This document shows, in pieces, positions 19,859 to 64,000 of a stretch of 64,000 nt of DNA (position 1 is the first letter of the stretch; each line of letters starts with the position of its first letter). A program made the translations under genes and the position numbers. Source of the stretch: Microlunatus capsulatus (GTDB lineage Bacteria > Actinomycetota > Actinomycetes > Propionibacteriales > Propionibacteriaceae); assembly GCF_017876495.1 (NCBI RefSeq), contig NZ_JAGIOB010000001.1:2108001-2172000 (forward strand), given 5' to 3'. Below the pieces are notes generated by a model. It had not been told where the DNA came from and ran no database searches. It saw nothing but the letters and a program-made list of their open reading frames with translations.

Positions 19859-20635
19859 CTACCCGGCCCGGGTGACGAGGTCCAGCGCGACGTCGCGGAG
19901 CACGCGGTCCTGGGTCCGCGACGCCTCGAGGAGCAGGGCCCAGGCCTGCTCGGCCGAGCAGTTCCGGGTGCCCATGACTACCCCCTTGGCCTGCTCGATG
20001 ACGGCCCGGGTGCTCATCGCCTCGCGGAGCCGGCGGGCCTCGGCCACCGCGGGGTGCCGGGCGGCCCGCGCGACCGCAACGGCCACCGCGGCGTAGTCGG
20101 CGAAGGTCCGGGTGAGCGCCACCGAGCCCGGCGAGAGCGGGCGCGAGGTCGCGACGTACAGGGTCAGCGCGCCGGCCGCGGCCGCCCCGCCGTCGGGCGG
20201 TTCCACGGTCAGCGCGACCGCCAGCACCCGGGTGATCCCGTGCTGGGCGGCGATCCCGCTGAACGCCGGGTAGGGGGTCTCGGGGTCGGTGGTGGTGACC
20301 GCGACCGTCCCGCCGGCGGCGGCCGCGTCCAGGCCGGGGCCCTCGCCGAGCGCGTGCTGCTGCTCGTCCAGGAAGGCGGCCAGCCGCCCTGCGGCGACCG
20401 CGGTGCGCGGCCGACCCTCCTCGACCAGGGTCACCGACACCTCGCCGAGCTCGGGGACCAGGCTGCGCGCCCCGTCCACCACCCGCTGCAGCAGGCGGCG
20501 CAGCGGGCCCTCGTCGCCGGCCCGCAGGACCTCGCTGAGCTCGTCCCAGGGGTCGGACCACGGGCCCGGGCGCACGCCCCGGAGGGCCGAGCGCTGGTGG
20601 GTGGCGGGGTGGTGCGTGGCGGGTGCGTCGGTCAT
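19859..20635 (-). CDS. GAF-ANTAR RNA-binding antiterminator (paralogue A)
   Basis: The 258-residue protein has a GAF sensor domain (about 35-185) and a C-terminal ANTAR domain (about 195-255) with the expected pattern LREAMSTRAVIEQAKGVVMGTRNCSAEQAWALLLEASR. ANTAR domains bind double-hairpin RNAs and prevent transcription termination. ATG 20635 has GGAGAA upstream; the GTG at 20647 is a weaker alternative. It is paralogous to the gene at 23056-23841, and both share a conserved, structured leader and promoter. In a PP2C/ANTAR neighbourhood the GAF domain probably senses a small ligand or stress signal (inference). Confidence 0.92.
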   Translation of the reverse strand: MTDAPATHHPATHQRSALRGVRPGPWSDPWDELSEVLRAGDEGPLRRLLQRVVDGARSLVPELGEVSVTLVEEGRPRTAVAAGRLAAFLDEQQHALGEGPGLDAAAAGGTVAVTTTDPETPYPAFSGIAAQHGITRVLAVALTVEPPDGGAAAAGALTLYVATSRPLSPGSVALTRTFADYAAVAVAVARAARHPAVAEARRLREAMSTRAVIEQAKGVVMGTRNCSAEQAWALLLEASRTQDRVLRDVALDLVTRAG

Positions 20636-20689: not shown

Positions 20690-20769
20690 CTCTGCGGGAG
20701 CCGCTGCTCGACCCCAGGCCGGCCCGTTCCCGGGCGCCGGTTGCGTCGTCCCGCCGGACGACCGCAGAG
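20690..20769 (-). promoter_or_regulatory. structured 5' leader RNA of GAF-ANTAR gene A
   Basis: This leader starts close to the predicted transcript start and ends about 55 nt before the ATG. A closing stem of 7 bp (20763-20769 with 20690-20696) encloses three hairpins: GTCGTCC-ggcg-GGACGAC (20745-20762), GCCCG-GGAA-CGGGC, and GAGC-agcg-GCTC. The same layout and most of the sequence recur at 23900-23978 upstream of the paralogue, with a compensatory base-pair change in the first hairpin. The function is inferred: an ANTAR target, or another regulatory RNA element. Confidence 0.6.
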
Positions 20770-20773
20770 CCGC

Positions 20774-20804
20774 AGCCTAGGACCTCGGGACGCGTCCGCG
20801 CCAC
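20774..20804 (-). promoter_or_regulatory. promoter of GAF-ANTAR gene A
   Basis: On the minus strand GTGGCG (20799-20804) and TAGGCT (20774-20779) are separated by 19 bp. The same spacing and similar boxes occur before paralogue B. Bases 20805-20985, the rest of this intergenic stretch, show nothing else I can support. Confidence 0.5.
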
Positions 20805-20985
20805 GGTTCCGCGCAGGCGGGGCACCAGCAGCACCGGCAGCACCAGGCGACCCAGCGGTGGGCGGGAGGGACAGCGGACCTGGAGAGGAGGCGCGTGGTC
20901 GGCGGACCTCGGGTCGTGCCTCGCTCCGGGGGACACCGAGGAGTGCCCGCGCTCGGCGCTGCCCGTCCCGGTGCGACGCGTCCTG

Positions 20986-22971
20986 TCACCGCCCCTCGGC
21001 GTCGGCGCCTGTCGGGTTCGGGGCCTGCTGGTAGGGCAGGCGGACCAGCTCGAGCACGTGTTGGGCCGGGGTGCCGTTGGGGGCGATCAGCTGGAGCCGG
21101 AGGTTGAGCGCTCGGGCTTGGCGGTCGACGCGGAAGAGCTGGTCGACCCCGCAGCTGGCGAGCAGGGTGAGGCGGGTCAGGTCGACGGTGGCCGTGGTGG
21201 CGGCCTCGGTGAGGGCCAGGTTGAGGTAGACGGAGACCTCGCTGGTGTGGGTGCCGTCGAGGGGCCCGACGATGGTGACGACCGGTTCCGGGCCGCCCGT
21301 GGCGTAGACGTCGAAGTGCTCGGGGTCGACCCTCGCGCTGGGACGCGGACCCTCGGCTGACGTGAGCAACCCGGCCGGCCGGTGGACGACGTGCCGCACC
21401 GTGGCGGTGGTGCCTGCCGCGGTGCCTTCGACCTGGAGCTCGTCGACGAGCTGGCGCACCAGGGCCAGGCCGCGGCCTCGGCTCTCGGTCACGATCGGCA
21501 TCTTCCAGCTCCCCGAGTCGCTGACGCGGAGGACGACCTGGCTGGTGGAGGTCAGCTCCGCGCGCAGCCGGAGGGGTTGCGGCGGGCTGTCGAGGTGGGC
21601 GTGGTCGGCGACGTTGGCGACCAGCTCGGTCACGCTCTGGAGCAGGGCCTGGACCGTTTCCTGGTCGACGGCGAGGTCCTCCAGCCAGCTGCGGACCGCC
21701 CTCCGCGCGAGTCCGGCCGCCGCAGCTCCGGGCAGACCTCCCACCGCCAGGTCCTCGACCGGCGCACGTCGCTGAGCGGCGAGGATGGTGATGTCGTCGC
21801 TGCGGCCGGTGGTCCGGGTGAGCAGCTCGAGGACGAGGCTGCAGATCCGCTCGGCGGCGCTGGTGGGGGCGCCGGCGGGCATGGTCCTGTTGTGCTGGGC
21901 GTCGTCGGCGGTGCTGAGCAGCTCGACCGCCGCGGCGGCGCCCGTGGTGCCGGGGCGCTCGAGGAGGCCGTCGCTGTACAGCACCAGCGTCTCGCCCACC
22001 ACGAGCTGGACCCGGGCGACGGTGAAGACGGTGCCGGTGGCCAGCGGACCGGCACCGCTCGGTGGGAGATAGCGGCTGCCGCTGCCGTCGACGGCGGCCA
22101 GGACCAGCGGCGGTGGGTGTCCGGCGGTGCAGTACTCGACCGATCCGTCGACGGCGACGAGGGCGACGAGGGCGACGACGACGGTGGCGCGGCGGGCGGC
22201 CGGCACGGTGTCCGCGAACCGGTCGAGGAACCCGAGCGACTCCGCCAGCCCTGCCCCCTGCTGCAGCTGGGCGAGCAGCAGGGTCCGCAGCTGCCCCATC
22301 GCCACCGCAGCCGCCTGCCCGTGGCCGACGACGTCACCGACCACGAGCGCCGTGGTGCCGTCGGGACGGGCGACGGCGTCGAACCAGTCGCCGCCGGCGA
22401 CGTCCTCGTCGTCGGCGAGGAGATAGCGGGCGGCCACGTCGAGGCCACGCGCGACCGGGACCGCATCCGGGAGCAGGGCCCGCTGGAGGGCGCGGACGCT
22501 GCCACGGGCAGCCGCGTAACGGCCACGGAGCTCCTCCAGCTCACGTTGCCGCTCGGCGCGCTGCCCCACGCGCTCGGTGACGTCACGGGCTGTCATGATC
22601 GTCCCGCGGGGTCGTCCGTCGGGGCCGAGGCGCGGGCTGAAGGTGGCGTCCAGGTAGATCTGGGCGACGGAGCCGTCCGGCTGGTGCAGCTGCATCCGGA
22701 ACTCCTCCACGGTGACCGTCTCACCGGTCTCCACGGGAGTGCGGTAGGCCTGCGGCCACCCCTGGCCCTGGAGCTCGCGGGGGAAGGACTCCAGGATCGG
22801 CTGACCCGGCTCGAAGCGGCCGCCGACGATCGCGCGGGCTGCCGCGTTGAGGGCCAGCGTGCTCAGCTCGAGGCCGTCGGTCACCACCATCAGCACCGGC
22901 GCCTGCTCGAACGCCTCAGCGGCCGCCTCCACGTCACCGCAGGGGCGCCGGTCCGACTCGTCAGCCATCAT
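20986..22971 (-). CDS. PAS-PP2C (SpoIIE-type) phosphatase with ATPase and STAS domains
   Basis: The 661-residue protein combines four signalling domains. A PAS domain (about 15-140) comes first. The PP2C/SpoIIE phosphatase follows (about 165-400; metal-binding GGDWFD 193-198, GDVVGHG 212-218, YSDGLLE 332-338, DDITIL 392-397). Then come a GHKL ATPase/anti-sigma kinase domain (about 415-530; ELVANVADHA with N453, DSGSW) and a C-terminal STAS domain (about 550-650; Ser in LLASCGVDQ). It therefore contains the phosphatase, the anti-sigma kinase and the antagonist of an Rsb-type partner switch in one chain. It lies between two GAF-ANTAR genes on the same strand, 84 nt after the first of them. Confidence 0.92.
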   Translation of the reverse strand: MMADESDRRPCGDVEAAAEAFEQAPVLMVVTDGLELSTLALNAAARAIVGGRFEPGQPILESFPRELQGQGWPQAYRTPVETGETVTVEEFRMQLHQPDGSVAQIYLDATFSPRLGPDGRPRGTIMTARDVTERVGQRAERQRELEELRGRYAAARGSVRALQRALLPDAVPVARGLDVAARYLLADDEDVAGGDWFDAVARPDGTTALVVGDVVGHGQAAAVAMGQLRTLLLAQLQQGAGLAESLGFLDRFADTVPAARRATVVVALVALVAVDGSVEYCTAGHPPPLVLAAVDGSGSRYLPPSGAGPLATGTVFTVARVQLVVGETLVLYSDGLLERPGTTGAAAAVELLSTADDAQHNRTMPAGAPTSAAERICSLVLELLTRTTGRSDDITILAAQRRAPVEDLAVGGLPGAAAAGLARRAVRSWLEDLAVDQETVQALLQSVTELVANVADHAHLDSPPQPLRLRAELTSTSQVVLRVSDSGSWKMPIVTESRGRGLALVRQLVDELQVEGTAAGTTATVRHVVHRPAGLLTSAEGPRPSARVDPEHFDVYATGGPEPVVTIVGPLDGTHTSEVSVYLNLALTEAATTATVDLTRLTLLASCGVDQLFRVDRQARALNLRLQLIAPNGTPAQHVLELVRLPYQQAPNPTGADAEGR

Positions 22972-23017
22972 CTGGTCCTTCTCGCGGGACGTCGTCTGCG
23001 GGCCCTTCCAGGCCTAC

Positions 23018-23055
23018 CCCCTGCCGGGGCCGCCGACCCATCCTTTCGGCAGGGG
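23018..23055 (-). terminator. hairpin between GAF-ANTAR gene B and the phosphatase gene (possible attenuator)
   Basis: A 9-bp stem CCCCTGCCG/CGGCAGGGG with a 20-nt loop begins directly after the stop codon of the upstream ANTAR gene and ends 46 nt before the phosphatase start. It may terminate or attenuate read-through into the phosphatase gene, which ANTAR antitermination could overcome. Confidence 0.45.
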
Positions 23056-23841
23056 TCACGGTGCCTGCGGGCGGACCCCGCGGCGGTTGACCAGGTCGTC
23101 GGCGATGTCGCGCAGCTTGCGGTTCTGCTGCTGCGACGCCCGCGTGAGCAGGCCGAACGCCTGCTCGGCGGTGCAGTGGCGGGTGGCCATCAGGATGCCC
23201 TTGGCCTGCTCGATGGCGGCGCGGGTCTTCATCGCCTCCTGCACGTGCCGGGCCTCCTCGAGGGCGTCGTGGTGCAGGACCGCGTTCGCGACGACCACCG
23301 CAGCGTGGCGGGCGAAGGTCTGCGCCAGCTCCACCGACGCGGTGCTGAGCGGCTGGGGGCTCGAGACGTACATGTTCAACGCGCCGACCGTGCGCTGGTG
23401 GGTCGGCAACCCGACCGCCAGCACCTGGGTGATGTGGTGCTGGGCCGCCATCCGGCTGAACTGGGGGTAGGTGCTGTGCGGGTCCGCGGTGTCGACGAGG
23501 ATCGTGCCGCCCACCAGCGCCGCGTCCAGGCACGGCCCGGACCCGAGCTCGTACTGCCGCTCGTCGAGCTGCGCCGCCAGAGAGCCGGCGAACGCCGCCG
23601 TGGTCGCGTGACCGTCCTGCACCAGGGTCACCGACACCAACGTCAGCTCTGGCAGCACACTCCGCGCCAGGTGCGCCACACGCCCCAGCACCCGGCCGAG
23701 GGACTGCCCGTCCCGGGTGAACAGGATCCGGTCCAGCTCGGCGAACACCCCCGTCGGCGCCACCGACGCCCCAGGGGCCGGACCCGGTGTGACCACCGCG
23801 GCCTCGGGCACCGGAGGACCGCCAGCTGCTGCGTCGTTCAT
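23056..23841 (-). CDS. GAF-ANTAR RNA-binding antiterminator (paralogue B)
   Basis: The 261-residue protein has a GAF domain (about 40-190; SGPCLDAALVGGTILVDTADP) and a C-terminal ANTAR domain (about 197-255; VQEAMKTRAAIEQAKGILMATRHCTAEQAFGLLTRASQ). ATG 23841 has GGAGA about 6 nt upstream. It is the first gene of a minus-strand series that continues with the multidomain phosphatase. Its structured leader (23900-23978) and promoter closely resemble those of paralogue A, so leader and gene duplicated together or the leader is under selection. Confidence 0.92.
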   Translation of the reverse strand: MNDAAAGGPPVPEAAVVTPGPAPGASVAPTGVFAELDRILFTRDGQSLGRVLGRVAHLARSVLPELTLVSVTLVQDGHATTAAFAGSLAAQLDERQYELGSGPCLDAALVGGTILVDTADPHSTYPQFSRMAAQHHITQVLAVGLPTHQRTVGALNMYVSSPQPLSTASVELAQTFARHAAVVVANAVLHHDALEEARHVQEAMKTRAAIEQAKGILMATRHCTAEQAFGLLTRASQQQNRKLRDIADDLVNRRGVRPQAP

Positions 23842-23899
23842 CGTCGTCTCCACGAGGTCGCCGCGGTGCAGCACCCGGTGAGGACGACGCCTGAGTGCT

Positions 23900-23978
23900 T
23901 CTGCGTGAGCCGCTGCTCGACCCAAGGCCAGCCCGAAGTCGTGGCGCCGGTTGCGTCGCCCCGCCGGGCGACCGCAGA
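23900..23978 (-). promoter_or_regulatory. structured 5' leader RNA of GAF-ANTAR gene B
   Basis: The second copy of the ANTAR leader has a closing stem TCTGCG/CGCAGA (23973-23978 with 23900-23905). Its first hairpin is GTCGCCC-ggcg-GGGCGAC (23955-23972), where a U-A pair of copy A is replaced by C-G. The second hairpin keeps 5 bp with one bulged A. The third, GAGC-agcg-GCTC, is identical to copy A. Confidence 0.6.
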
Positions 23979-23983
23979 CCCGC

Positions 23984-24014
23984 AGCGTAGGAGGTGGACC
24001 GCGTCCTCCGCCAA
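23984..24014 (-). promoter_or_regulatory. promoter of GAF-ANTAR gene B
   Basis: On the minus strand TTGGCG (24009-24014) and TACGCT (23984-23989) are 19 bp apart, as in copy A. Transcription would start within a few bases of the leader's closing stem. Confidence 0.5.
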
Positions 24015-24108: not shown

Positions 24109-24182
24109 TGGAGCGGACGACGGGAATCGAACCCGCATTCTCAGCTTGGGAAGCTGATGTACTGCCATTGTACGACATCCGC
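24109..24182 (-). tRNA. tRNA-Gly (anticodon CCC)
   Basis: A complete cloverleaf is readable on the minus strand: acceptor stem GCGGATG/CGTCCGC with one G-T pair, anticodon loop TTCCCAA (CCC at 24148-24150), T-loop GGTTCGAATCC, discriminator T, and an encoded CCA end (24109-24111). No integrase or att-like repeat is next to it. Confidence 0.95.
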
Positions 24183-63750: not shown

Positions 63751-64000
63751 TCAGGAGGCGGCGTCGACCTGGAAGGGGGCCGGGGCCTCCGCCAGCGCGG
63801 GGTCGGCCGCCGCGACCACCTGGCCGGCGGCGGCGTGCAGCCGGATGTTGTAGTTCTGCGAGTAGCGGCGGAGCAGGTCGAAGGCCGCGTCGGCGCTGCT
63901 GCCGTTGCGCTCCATGAGCATCCCGAGCGCCATGTCGATCCGGCGCCGGCGGTCCATCGCCGCCGCCCGGTCGTCGAGCTCGCGCGCCTGCCGCACCAGG
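63751..64000 (-). CDS. ANTAR-domain protein, 5'-truncated by window edge
   Basis: Only the C-terminal ANTAR domain and tail are visible: RQARELDDRAAAMDRRRRIDMALGMLMERNGSSADAAFDLLRRYSQNYNIRLHAAAGQVV. The frame stays open to the window edge, so the N-terminal part (often GAF or response-regulator receiver) lies beyond 64000. It is the third ANTAR gene in the window. The C-terminal tail is Ala/Pro rich. The codon at 63996 is not a convincing start. Confidence 0.85.
   Translation of the reverse strand, partial: LVRQARELDDRAAAMDRRRRIDMALGMLMERNGSSADAAFDLLRRYSQNYNIRLHAAAGQVVAAADPALAEAPAPFQVDAAS

Follow-up and report, generated by a model that had tools for sequence, protein, structure and literature searches.

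In a 64,000-nucleotide stretch of the Microlunatus capsulatus genome (NCBI RefSeq assembly GCF_017876495.1, contig NZ_JAGIOB010000001.1, positions 2,108,001 to 2,172,000 of the forward strand; hereafter the window), two GAF-ANTAR genes are preceded by leaders that carry a small hairpin, termed P2. The pairing of P2 is conserved and the element exists; moreover, nearly all of its occurrences precede ANTAR genes. P2, the putative recognition element of the leader, comprises a stem of 5-6 pairs, with GUC/GGC as its three inner pairs, one of them a U-G wobble, and a loop of the type (R)AGCAGC. We consider it likely that these leaders contain a cis-acting ANTAR-target RNA and that an ANTAR protein, by binding P2, controls its own gene. 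An interaction between the hairpin and the downstream ANTAR protein is suggested by the position of the hairpin and by analogy with the RNAs bound by NmPAL, the PAS-ANTAR-LOV photoreceptor of Nakamurella multipartita, with which it has the loop in common (PMC10966536, cited here and below from excerpts, as are PMC8164766 and PMC8934654). The genome that contains the window comprises 4.41 Mb in one contig. The features of both genes and leaders are as follows (P1 denotes the hairpin that precedes P2 in other families, and R1 is a covariance model described below).

19859..20635, minus strand: GAF-ANTAR gene 1, 258 amino acids, Pfam ANTAR 57.8 bits, GAF_2 30.4 bits
20698..20714, minus strand: P2 of leader 1, GGGUC-GAGCAGC-GGCUC, flanking pair G-C, R1 46.8 bits (seed)
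20690..20769, minus strand: leader 1 between the closing-stem arms CUCUGCGG/CCGCAGAG, 8 bp, from alignment and fold
20745..20762, minus strand: first hairpin of leader 1, GUCGUCC-GGCG-GGACGAC, one compensatory pair relative to leader 2
20774..20804, minus strand: promoter-like boxes of leader 1, -35 GTGGCG, 19-bp spacer, -10 TAGGCT, from sequence only
23056..23841, minus strand: GAF-ANTAR gene 2, 261 amino acids, Pfam ANTAR 74.0 bits, GAF_2 37.3 bits
23907..23923, minus strand: P2 of leader 2, GGGUC-GAGCAGC-GGCUC, flanking pair U-A, R1 45.5 bits (seed)
23900..23978, minus strand: leader 2 between the closing-stem arms UCUGCG/CGCAGA, 6 bp, absent from the predicted minimum-energy fold
23955..23972, minus strand: first hairpin of leader 2, GUCGCCC-GGCG-GGGCGAC, from alignment and fold; at most a candidate counterpart of P1
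23984..24014, minus strand: promoter-like boxes of leader 2, -35 TTGGCG, 19-bp spacer, -10 TACGCT, assigned likewise

Both proteins score above the curated Pfam cut-offs for GAF and ANTAR and thus belong to the GAF-ANTAR family. The initial annotation of this DNA described two nearly identical leaders with promoter boxes at the same 19-bp spacing, and this description is accurate: the leaders are 92% identical over a 50-nt block and 90% over a 41-nt block, two coding blocks reach 72% and 73%, and the boxes lie 19 bp apart in both. The change from GTCGTCC/GGACGAC to GTCGCCC/GGGCGAC, noted in the first hairpin, is truly compensatory, and so is the change of the outer P2 pair from G-C in leader 1 to U-A in leader 2. 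As for the closing stem that was said to surround three hairpins, leader 1 (83 nt), when folded alone, is predicted to adopt this closed shape (z -2.01, equalled by 8 of 200 shuffles). For leader 2 (85 nt) a different outer stem is predicted (z -0.92; 36 of 200). The minimum-energy folds of longer leaders (137 and 142 nt) contain neither the described closed shape nor P2. The closing stem and the middle hairpin were seen only in the two window copies, the stem CUCUGCGG/CCGCAGAG of leader 1 was not found outside the two window leaders, and beyond them the third hairpin alone recurs. The proposal of an ANTAR-specific leader RNA element stands, but not that of an 80-nt three-hairpin closed structure as its conserved unit. 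This unit is the 17-nt hairpin P2, which in other families is preceded by a covarying hairpin. In the window leaders, the first hairpin is separated from P2 by about 30 nt, with another hairpin in between.

A DNA search of the same genome returned the two copies and a third site, which matches the last hairpin only. Another GAF-ANTAR gene follows shortly downstream of this third P2, and a second species of the genus shows the same arrangement. The scan of regions upstream of ANTAR frames in the genus (55 rows) yielded eight genes with GGGUC-loop-GGCUC or GGCCC, among which the loops GAGCAGC, AAGCAGC, AGACAAGC, AAACAGC, AGACAUC and GAGCAGG occurred. Six further loose GGGTC stems (L018, L040, L091 plus, L107, L111 minus, L121) were dropped, since their loops were unlike the others. 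The covariance model R1, built from this set of eight, gave ten matches of at least 33 bits in 20 genomes of the genus, and all ten were situated upstream of ANTAR genes. Eight of these were seeds and two were new, and the sites were spread over 4 of the 20 genomes (5, 3, 1 and 1). One new match precedes a bare ANTAR gene of 73 amino acids with a GTG start (Pfam 46.7 bits; L091, 1699-1917, minus), which is located in the same genome outside the window and has its own P2, GGGTC-AGGCAGC-GGCCC; the other precedes a gene for a divergent ANTAR protein (Pfam 40.5 bits). The next match, at 32.6 bits (G005), is not at an ANTAR gene and seems to lie in the final part of a coding frame. At L003 and L033, P2 is retained although the rest of the leader has diverged. 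Three ANTAR frames, two of them divergent, lie close together at about 454300-456300 of the window's genome (L091 and L094).

Other families were represented by 80 named GAF-ANTAR loci, taken from among the matches listed when named genomes were scanned once with A3, an alignment of GAF-ANTAR proteins; loci and rows were picked by homology or pattern. On these loci the best R1 match reached 24.8 bits and was not at the gene. The stem had changed there, and a loop-based scan, which accepted any stem, then found P2 upstream of those genes in the forms GCGUC-AAGCAGC-GGCGC and GCGUCC-AGCAGC-GGGCGC. The loop A[AG][AC]AG[CT], with a stem of 5 bp or more, occurred in 20 of the 80 upstream regions, as compared with 1.35 expected when the remainder of these loci served as reference; eight changed control loops gave 0-2 each. 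Among the 20 positive loci, L243 does not belong to the P2 type. The stem GCGTC-N6..8-GGCGY was present at 30 loci (1.56 expected in the same manner), whereas its Watson-Crick version GCGTC/GACGC was present at one (0.91 expected) and GCGCC/GGCGC at four (2.29 expected). The U-G wobble is therefore a feature of P2, because the wobble stem is enriched and the Watson-Crick form is not. According to the record titles, the 30 stem-positive loci belong mostly to Micromonospora, Actinoplanes or Paractinoplanes; isolated ones come from Plantactinospora, Couchioplanes, Frankiales or Frankineae bins and a bin under the title Melainabacteria. Loops are mostly of 7 nt, and changes in loop length occur: the window leaders and most others have one extra purine or A before AGCAGC, variants such as AAGAAGC exist, and AGCAGC closed exactly by C-G is found in L244, L246, L250 and L251. 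A similar hairpin was detected in one Blastococcus locus (L265).

Some individual loci may be mentioned here. L255, a record titled Candidatus Melainabacteria, holds an actinobacteria-like GAF-ANTAR gene with its leader, and the title may be a binning error. The leaders of L218 and L234 (Blastococcus) contain, downstream of a strong hairpin, the common stretch TCCGTGCGGTCATGACGCGGCTCGCGGTGGCGACCGG, which by eye may be a diverged P2. In front of L310, a PAS-ANTAR gene of another family, GAGGUC-AAGCAGC-GGCUUC ends 26 nt before the start.

The specificity for ANTAR genes was assessed with R2, a covariance model of 27 sequences of this second form. In 16 whole genomes R2 gave 31 matches at E <= 0.05, and 26 of the 30 inspected are followed within 155 nt by the beginning of a same-strand open frame with an ANTAR domain. 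Thirteen of the 30 were seeds from alignment A4, and 13 of the other 17 were at ANTAR genes, some of them close relatives of seeds. Above 40 bits, 10 of 11 non-seed matches were at ANTAR genes, and the remaining one (L294, 55.9 bits, at the A. xinjiangensis locus L238) precedes a GAF gene seemingly without an ANTAR part. Candidate targets at other genes, namely L293 (39.2 bits), L297 (35.1 bits) and L286 (32.9 bits), were weak and were judged to be due to chance. A search of 393 genomes of the class, in which strict filters left few candidates to be scored per genome, gave three matches, all at ANTAR genes; in the collected loci, each of eight extra matches stood at an adjacent ANTAR gene. The ANTAR domain is the common denominator, because the element stands at GAF-ANTAR, PAS-ANTAR and bare-ANTAR genes alike. 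Rfam 15 offered no family at the gathering threshold: the window and 20 element loci gave tRNAs only, and the weak matches of leader 2 were all below threshold.

The layout of the second form is, in order, a -10-like box, the P1 hairpin (some 8-9 bp), P2 behind a short linker and the start codon, with mostly 50-130 nt between P2 and the start codon in those leaders where a start with a Shine-Dalgarno site could be chosen. R2 was realigned over 49 matches, 48 of them distinct, and the constancy of P2 in this alignment is partly a matter of choice, because its P2 sequences were selected by pattern. In P1, 9 of 9 pairs changed on both sides; its covariation score was 0.280, compared with 0.052-0.106 when slid, and was reached by 0 of 500 shuffles. 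Pairing was seen in 79.7% of the P1 cells, and the P1 loops vary and are not conserved. RNAalifold on A4 found P2 alone, because MAFFT misaligned P1; a structure-guided model and realignment were used for P1, and such an alignment leans towards its structure. The cross-clade alignment of P2 comprised 18 sequences in hand-picked rows, two of which (L244 and L217) were judged misregistered, and gave a covariation score of 0.225; slid versions attained no more than 0.094, and none of 500 shuffles reached it. At the second pair, GU occurs in 6, CG in 5, GC in 4 and no pairing in 3 sequences, and the wobble column is U-G in all 18. Homologues with further covariation at other ANTAR genes, which the initial annotation had named as the test of its proposal, have thus been found. 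The 42 nt before P2 fold with a mean z-score of -1.13, compared with +0.14 for control windows (56 leaders); in 9 of 10 leaders of the window's genus, z was not below -1.

The following course of events can be proposed. In Micromonosporaceae and some others, the covarying P1 would be formed just behind the -10-like box, followed by P2. When the sensor domain (GAF or PAS) of the downstream protein is activated, its ANTAR domain would bind the P2 loop, as lit NmPAL does with AGCAGC hairpins. More tentatively, P2 may in part of the leaders compete with a complementary stretch near the gene start, so that binding would alter translation. Between P2 and the gene start, GCTGC occurs in 20 of 32 leaders with a GCAG loop and in 3 of 17 with a GAAG loop (Fisher p 0.006 on related sequences), and GCTTC in 2 of 32 and 7 of 17, respectively (Fisher p 0.005, likewise on related sequences). 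In several leaders the loop complement adjoins the Shine-Dalgarno site, e.g., CCGCTGC-GGGGA in L203, and in L230 GCGTCGCTTCTT, with 12 pairs, stands before AAGGA. Forming P2 costs 4.33 kcal/mol beside the native downstream part and 3.34 kcal/mol beside a shuffled one (p 0.009). Control via transcript elongation or mRNA stability is possible. As regards ANTAR residues and loop class, the column with the largest difference (V or L ahead of SQ) tracks clade membership without being strict, and no link is claimed.

Several results weigh against autoregulation through P2, or against its generality. The counts from the 80 loci are not independent, because the loci are related genes. At 32 loci outside the main groups, GTC/GGC hairpins occurred at 7 (2.84 expected), a weak enrichment, and 35 genes of the PAS-ANTAR type had loop hairpins at 4 (1.66 expected), so that this group is not clearly enriched. 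Carriers of P2 are a minority branch in the genus, because ten sites stand against 199 Pfam ANTAR matches in the same 20 genomes. Beyond the genus, R1 found nothing convincing: in the order it matched 210 of 391 genomes at E <= 0.02, and these matches look like chance in GC-rich DNA, because, of 54 loci drawn from the genus and order searches (L129-L182), 6 held an ANTAR frame, all six being sites of known elements. R2, for its part, had no match in the window's genome in the 393-genome search and none at E <= 0.02 on ten leaders of the genus. The union of both P2 forms therefore rests on loop, inner stem and position, because neither model finds the other form. The simpler measures of covariation are less favourable: the number of both-side pairs in P1 was reached by 99 of 500 shuffles, and in the cross-clade P2 alignment the both-side pairs (2) were reached by 454 and the pair types (7) by 177 of 500. 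Finally, the idea that P2 opens the Shine-Dalgarno site found no support, since forcing P2 led to no opening on average (gain -0.06 kcal/mol, -0.11 kcal/mol when shuffled, p 0.94, 53 leaders).

A structured cis-regulatory leader could also be bound by something else, such as a metabolite, another protein or an sRNA, with ANTAR proteins acting elsewhere. The strong structure of P1 and the extra parts of the genus leaders would fit this reading. However, the P2 loop is the one bound at nanomolar affinity by an ANTAR domain of the same branch (PMC10966536), and the genes behind the element, with GAF, with PAS or with no sensor domain, have the ANTAR domain common to all, which makes a different ligand unlikely. 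Shared ancestry or local gene conversion among paralogue leaders would require no function of the RNA at all. The near identity of the window leaders, 3.2 kb apart, in a family rich in paralogues, some of them adjoining, fits such an origin, but it does not account for the retention of P2 where the remainder of the leader diverged (L003, L033), for compensatory changes in P1 and P2, or for a retained U-G wobble whose Watson-Crick form is not enriched; we regard this explanation as very improbable.

P2 is also an inverted repeat near a promoter, and in some leaders open frames run through it, as would be seen if it were a DNA operator or a coding feature (an N-terminal extension or an upstream reading frame) instead of an RNA hairpin. 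Against this, the wobble is invariant and the Watson-Crick version rare, the conserved loop is asymmetric, and loop length changes. Relative to the gene, P2 falls in each of the three reading frames, and in 12 of 29 leaders stop codons intervene; a coding extension was rejected on these grounds, and a short upstream frame with a GTG start was inspected by eye only. Taken together, an operator or coding origin is hardly credible. Autoregulation through ANTAR binding of P2 thus remains the preferred reading. A broader proposal, for and against which we see about equal weight, is that many actinobacterial ANTAR genes are self-addressed, each having its own cognate hairpin, that GUC/GGC with an AGCAGC-type loop is the natural code of this branch, rediscovered by the NmPAL aptamers, and that variants insulate paralogues. 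Loop variants such as AAGCAGC, AAGAAGC, AUGAAGC and GAGACCAC would then keep paralogous ANTAR-RNA pairs apart within one cell.

The surroundings of the two genes can be described briefly. Immediately upstream of leader 2, and on its strand, there is a tRNA-Gly (anticodon ccc; window 24109-24182, minus). Between both GAF-ANTAR genes, a PAS/SpoIIE phosphatase/HATPase/STAS protein of 661 amino acids is encoded (window 20986-22971, minus), which looks like a stress-signalling switch. A further Pfam ANTAR match (window 63814-63963, minus) is located inside a 464-amino-acid open frame at the window end.

Many actinobacterial ANTAR proteins are without a known RNA target, and P2 is a concrete candidate for a natural target family with a recognition loop. 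Both the question of these targets and that of the natural ligand of NmPAL, an optogenetic tool on whose ligand a candidate natural hairpin family bears, become testable with an RNA of about 19 nt. As a collection of candidate pairs of protein and natural hairpin, the leaders may also be of use for RNA tools. Moreover, the results suggest that searches based on the dual-hexaloop rule (A at place 1 and G at place 4) can miss a branch of ANTAR targets. In searches of the open-licence PMC literature (subscription papers, preprints and supplements being outside this scope), no description of such GAF-ANTAR leaders was found, and the excerpted text of PMC8164766, without its supplements, makes no mention of GAF, autoregul, Micromonospora, Actinoplanes or Microlunatus.

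According to the rule published for ANTAR targets, two hexaloops with A1 and G4 are required (PMC8164766, PMC8934654); in its revision, a single hexaloop is the minimal motif (PMC8934654). Canonical targets are described from firmicutes and proteobacteria, and 611 are predicted in actinobacteria (PMC8164766). Like these RNAs, the P2 leaders have a leader hairpin and a putative ANTAR partner, and in the R2 form two hairpins are joined by a short linker; a single recognition hairpin, as P2 would be, agrees with the revision, in which one hairpin suffices. The P2 leaders differ in that place 4 of AGCAGC is A and not G, the loop is mostly of 7 nt, the P1 loops are unconserved and the proposed target is the ANTAR gene itself. 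The initial annotation was right that the loop departs from the rule: read as a hexaloop, AGCAGC has A1 and A4, and P1 and P2 do not show A1 and G4 in both stems. The canonical linker between both stems measures 2-25 nt; that of the R2 form is short, whereas the window leaders have about 30 nt with a hairpin between. Canonical targets also overlap a terminator, a ribosome site or a start codon; in part of the P2 leaders, complements of the loop stand near the start, and access to the Shine-Dalgarno site showed no average effect. In the riboptoregulator, an engineered NmPAL switch (PMC11381354), the aptamer hairpin and a helix close to the ribosome site are mutually exclusive. The data suggest a comparable exclusion in part of the P2 leaders, although in these natural leaders the Shine-Dalgarno site was, on average, not opened as predicted.

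The closest likeness is to the RNAs of NmPAL itself. Among solved structures, the nearest relative of the gene 2 protein is chain 6HMJ (E 4.2e-9, next 0.021), and an alignment of five such proteins likewise places 6HMJ nearest (9.5e-12, next 3.6e-5). This chain is named 'Putative PAS/PAC sensor protein', and we take it to be NmPAL. Judging by these similarities, the ANTAR domain of the leader-bearing genes appears to be of the same branch as that of NmPAL, of which no obvious orthologue was seen in 393 sampled genomes (best 39% identity). NmPAL binds the SELEX hairpins 53 and 58, which have the loop nucleotides AGCAGC in common, the latter at 3.5 nM in light, and its natural RNA is given as unknown in the excerpts (PMC10966536). 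The NmPAL-binding RNAs (motifs 2 and 3, aptamers 53 and 58) thus have the same AGCAGC loop as P2, and in Nm60, a genomic NmPAL candidate (UUCAGCAGCGAG), AGCAGC is closed by C-G as in the leaders of the L244 type. The aptamers are artificial, and the sole natural candidate in these excerpts, Nm60, comes from one genome, whereas P2 is natural and occurs in several families, at mostly GAF-sensor ANTAR genes.

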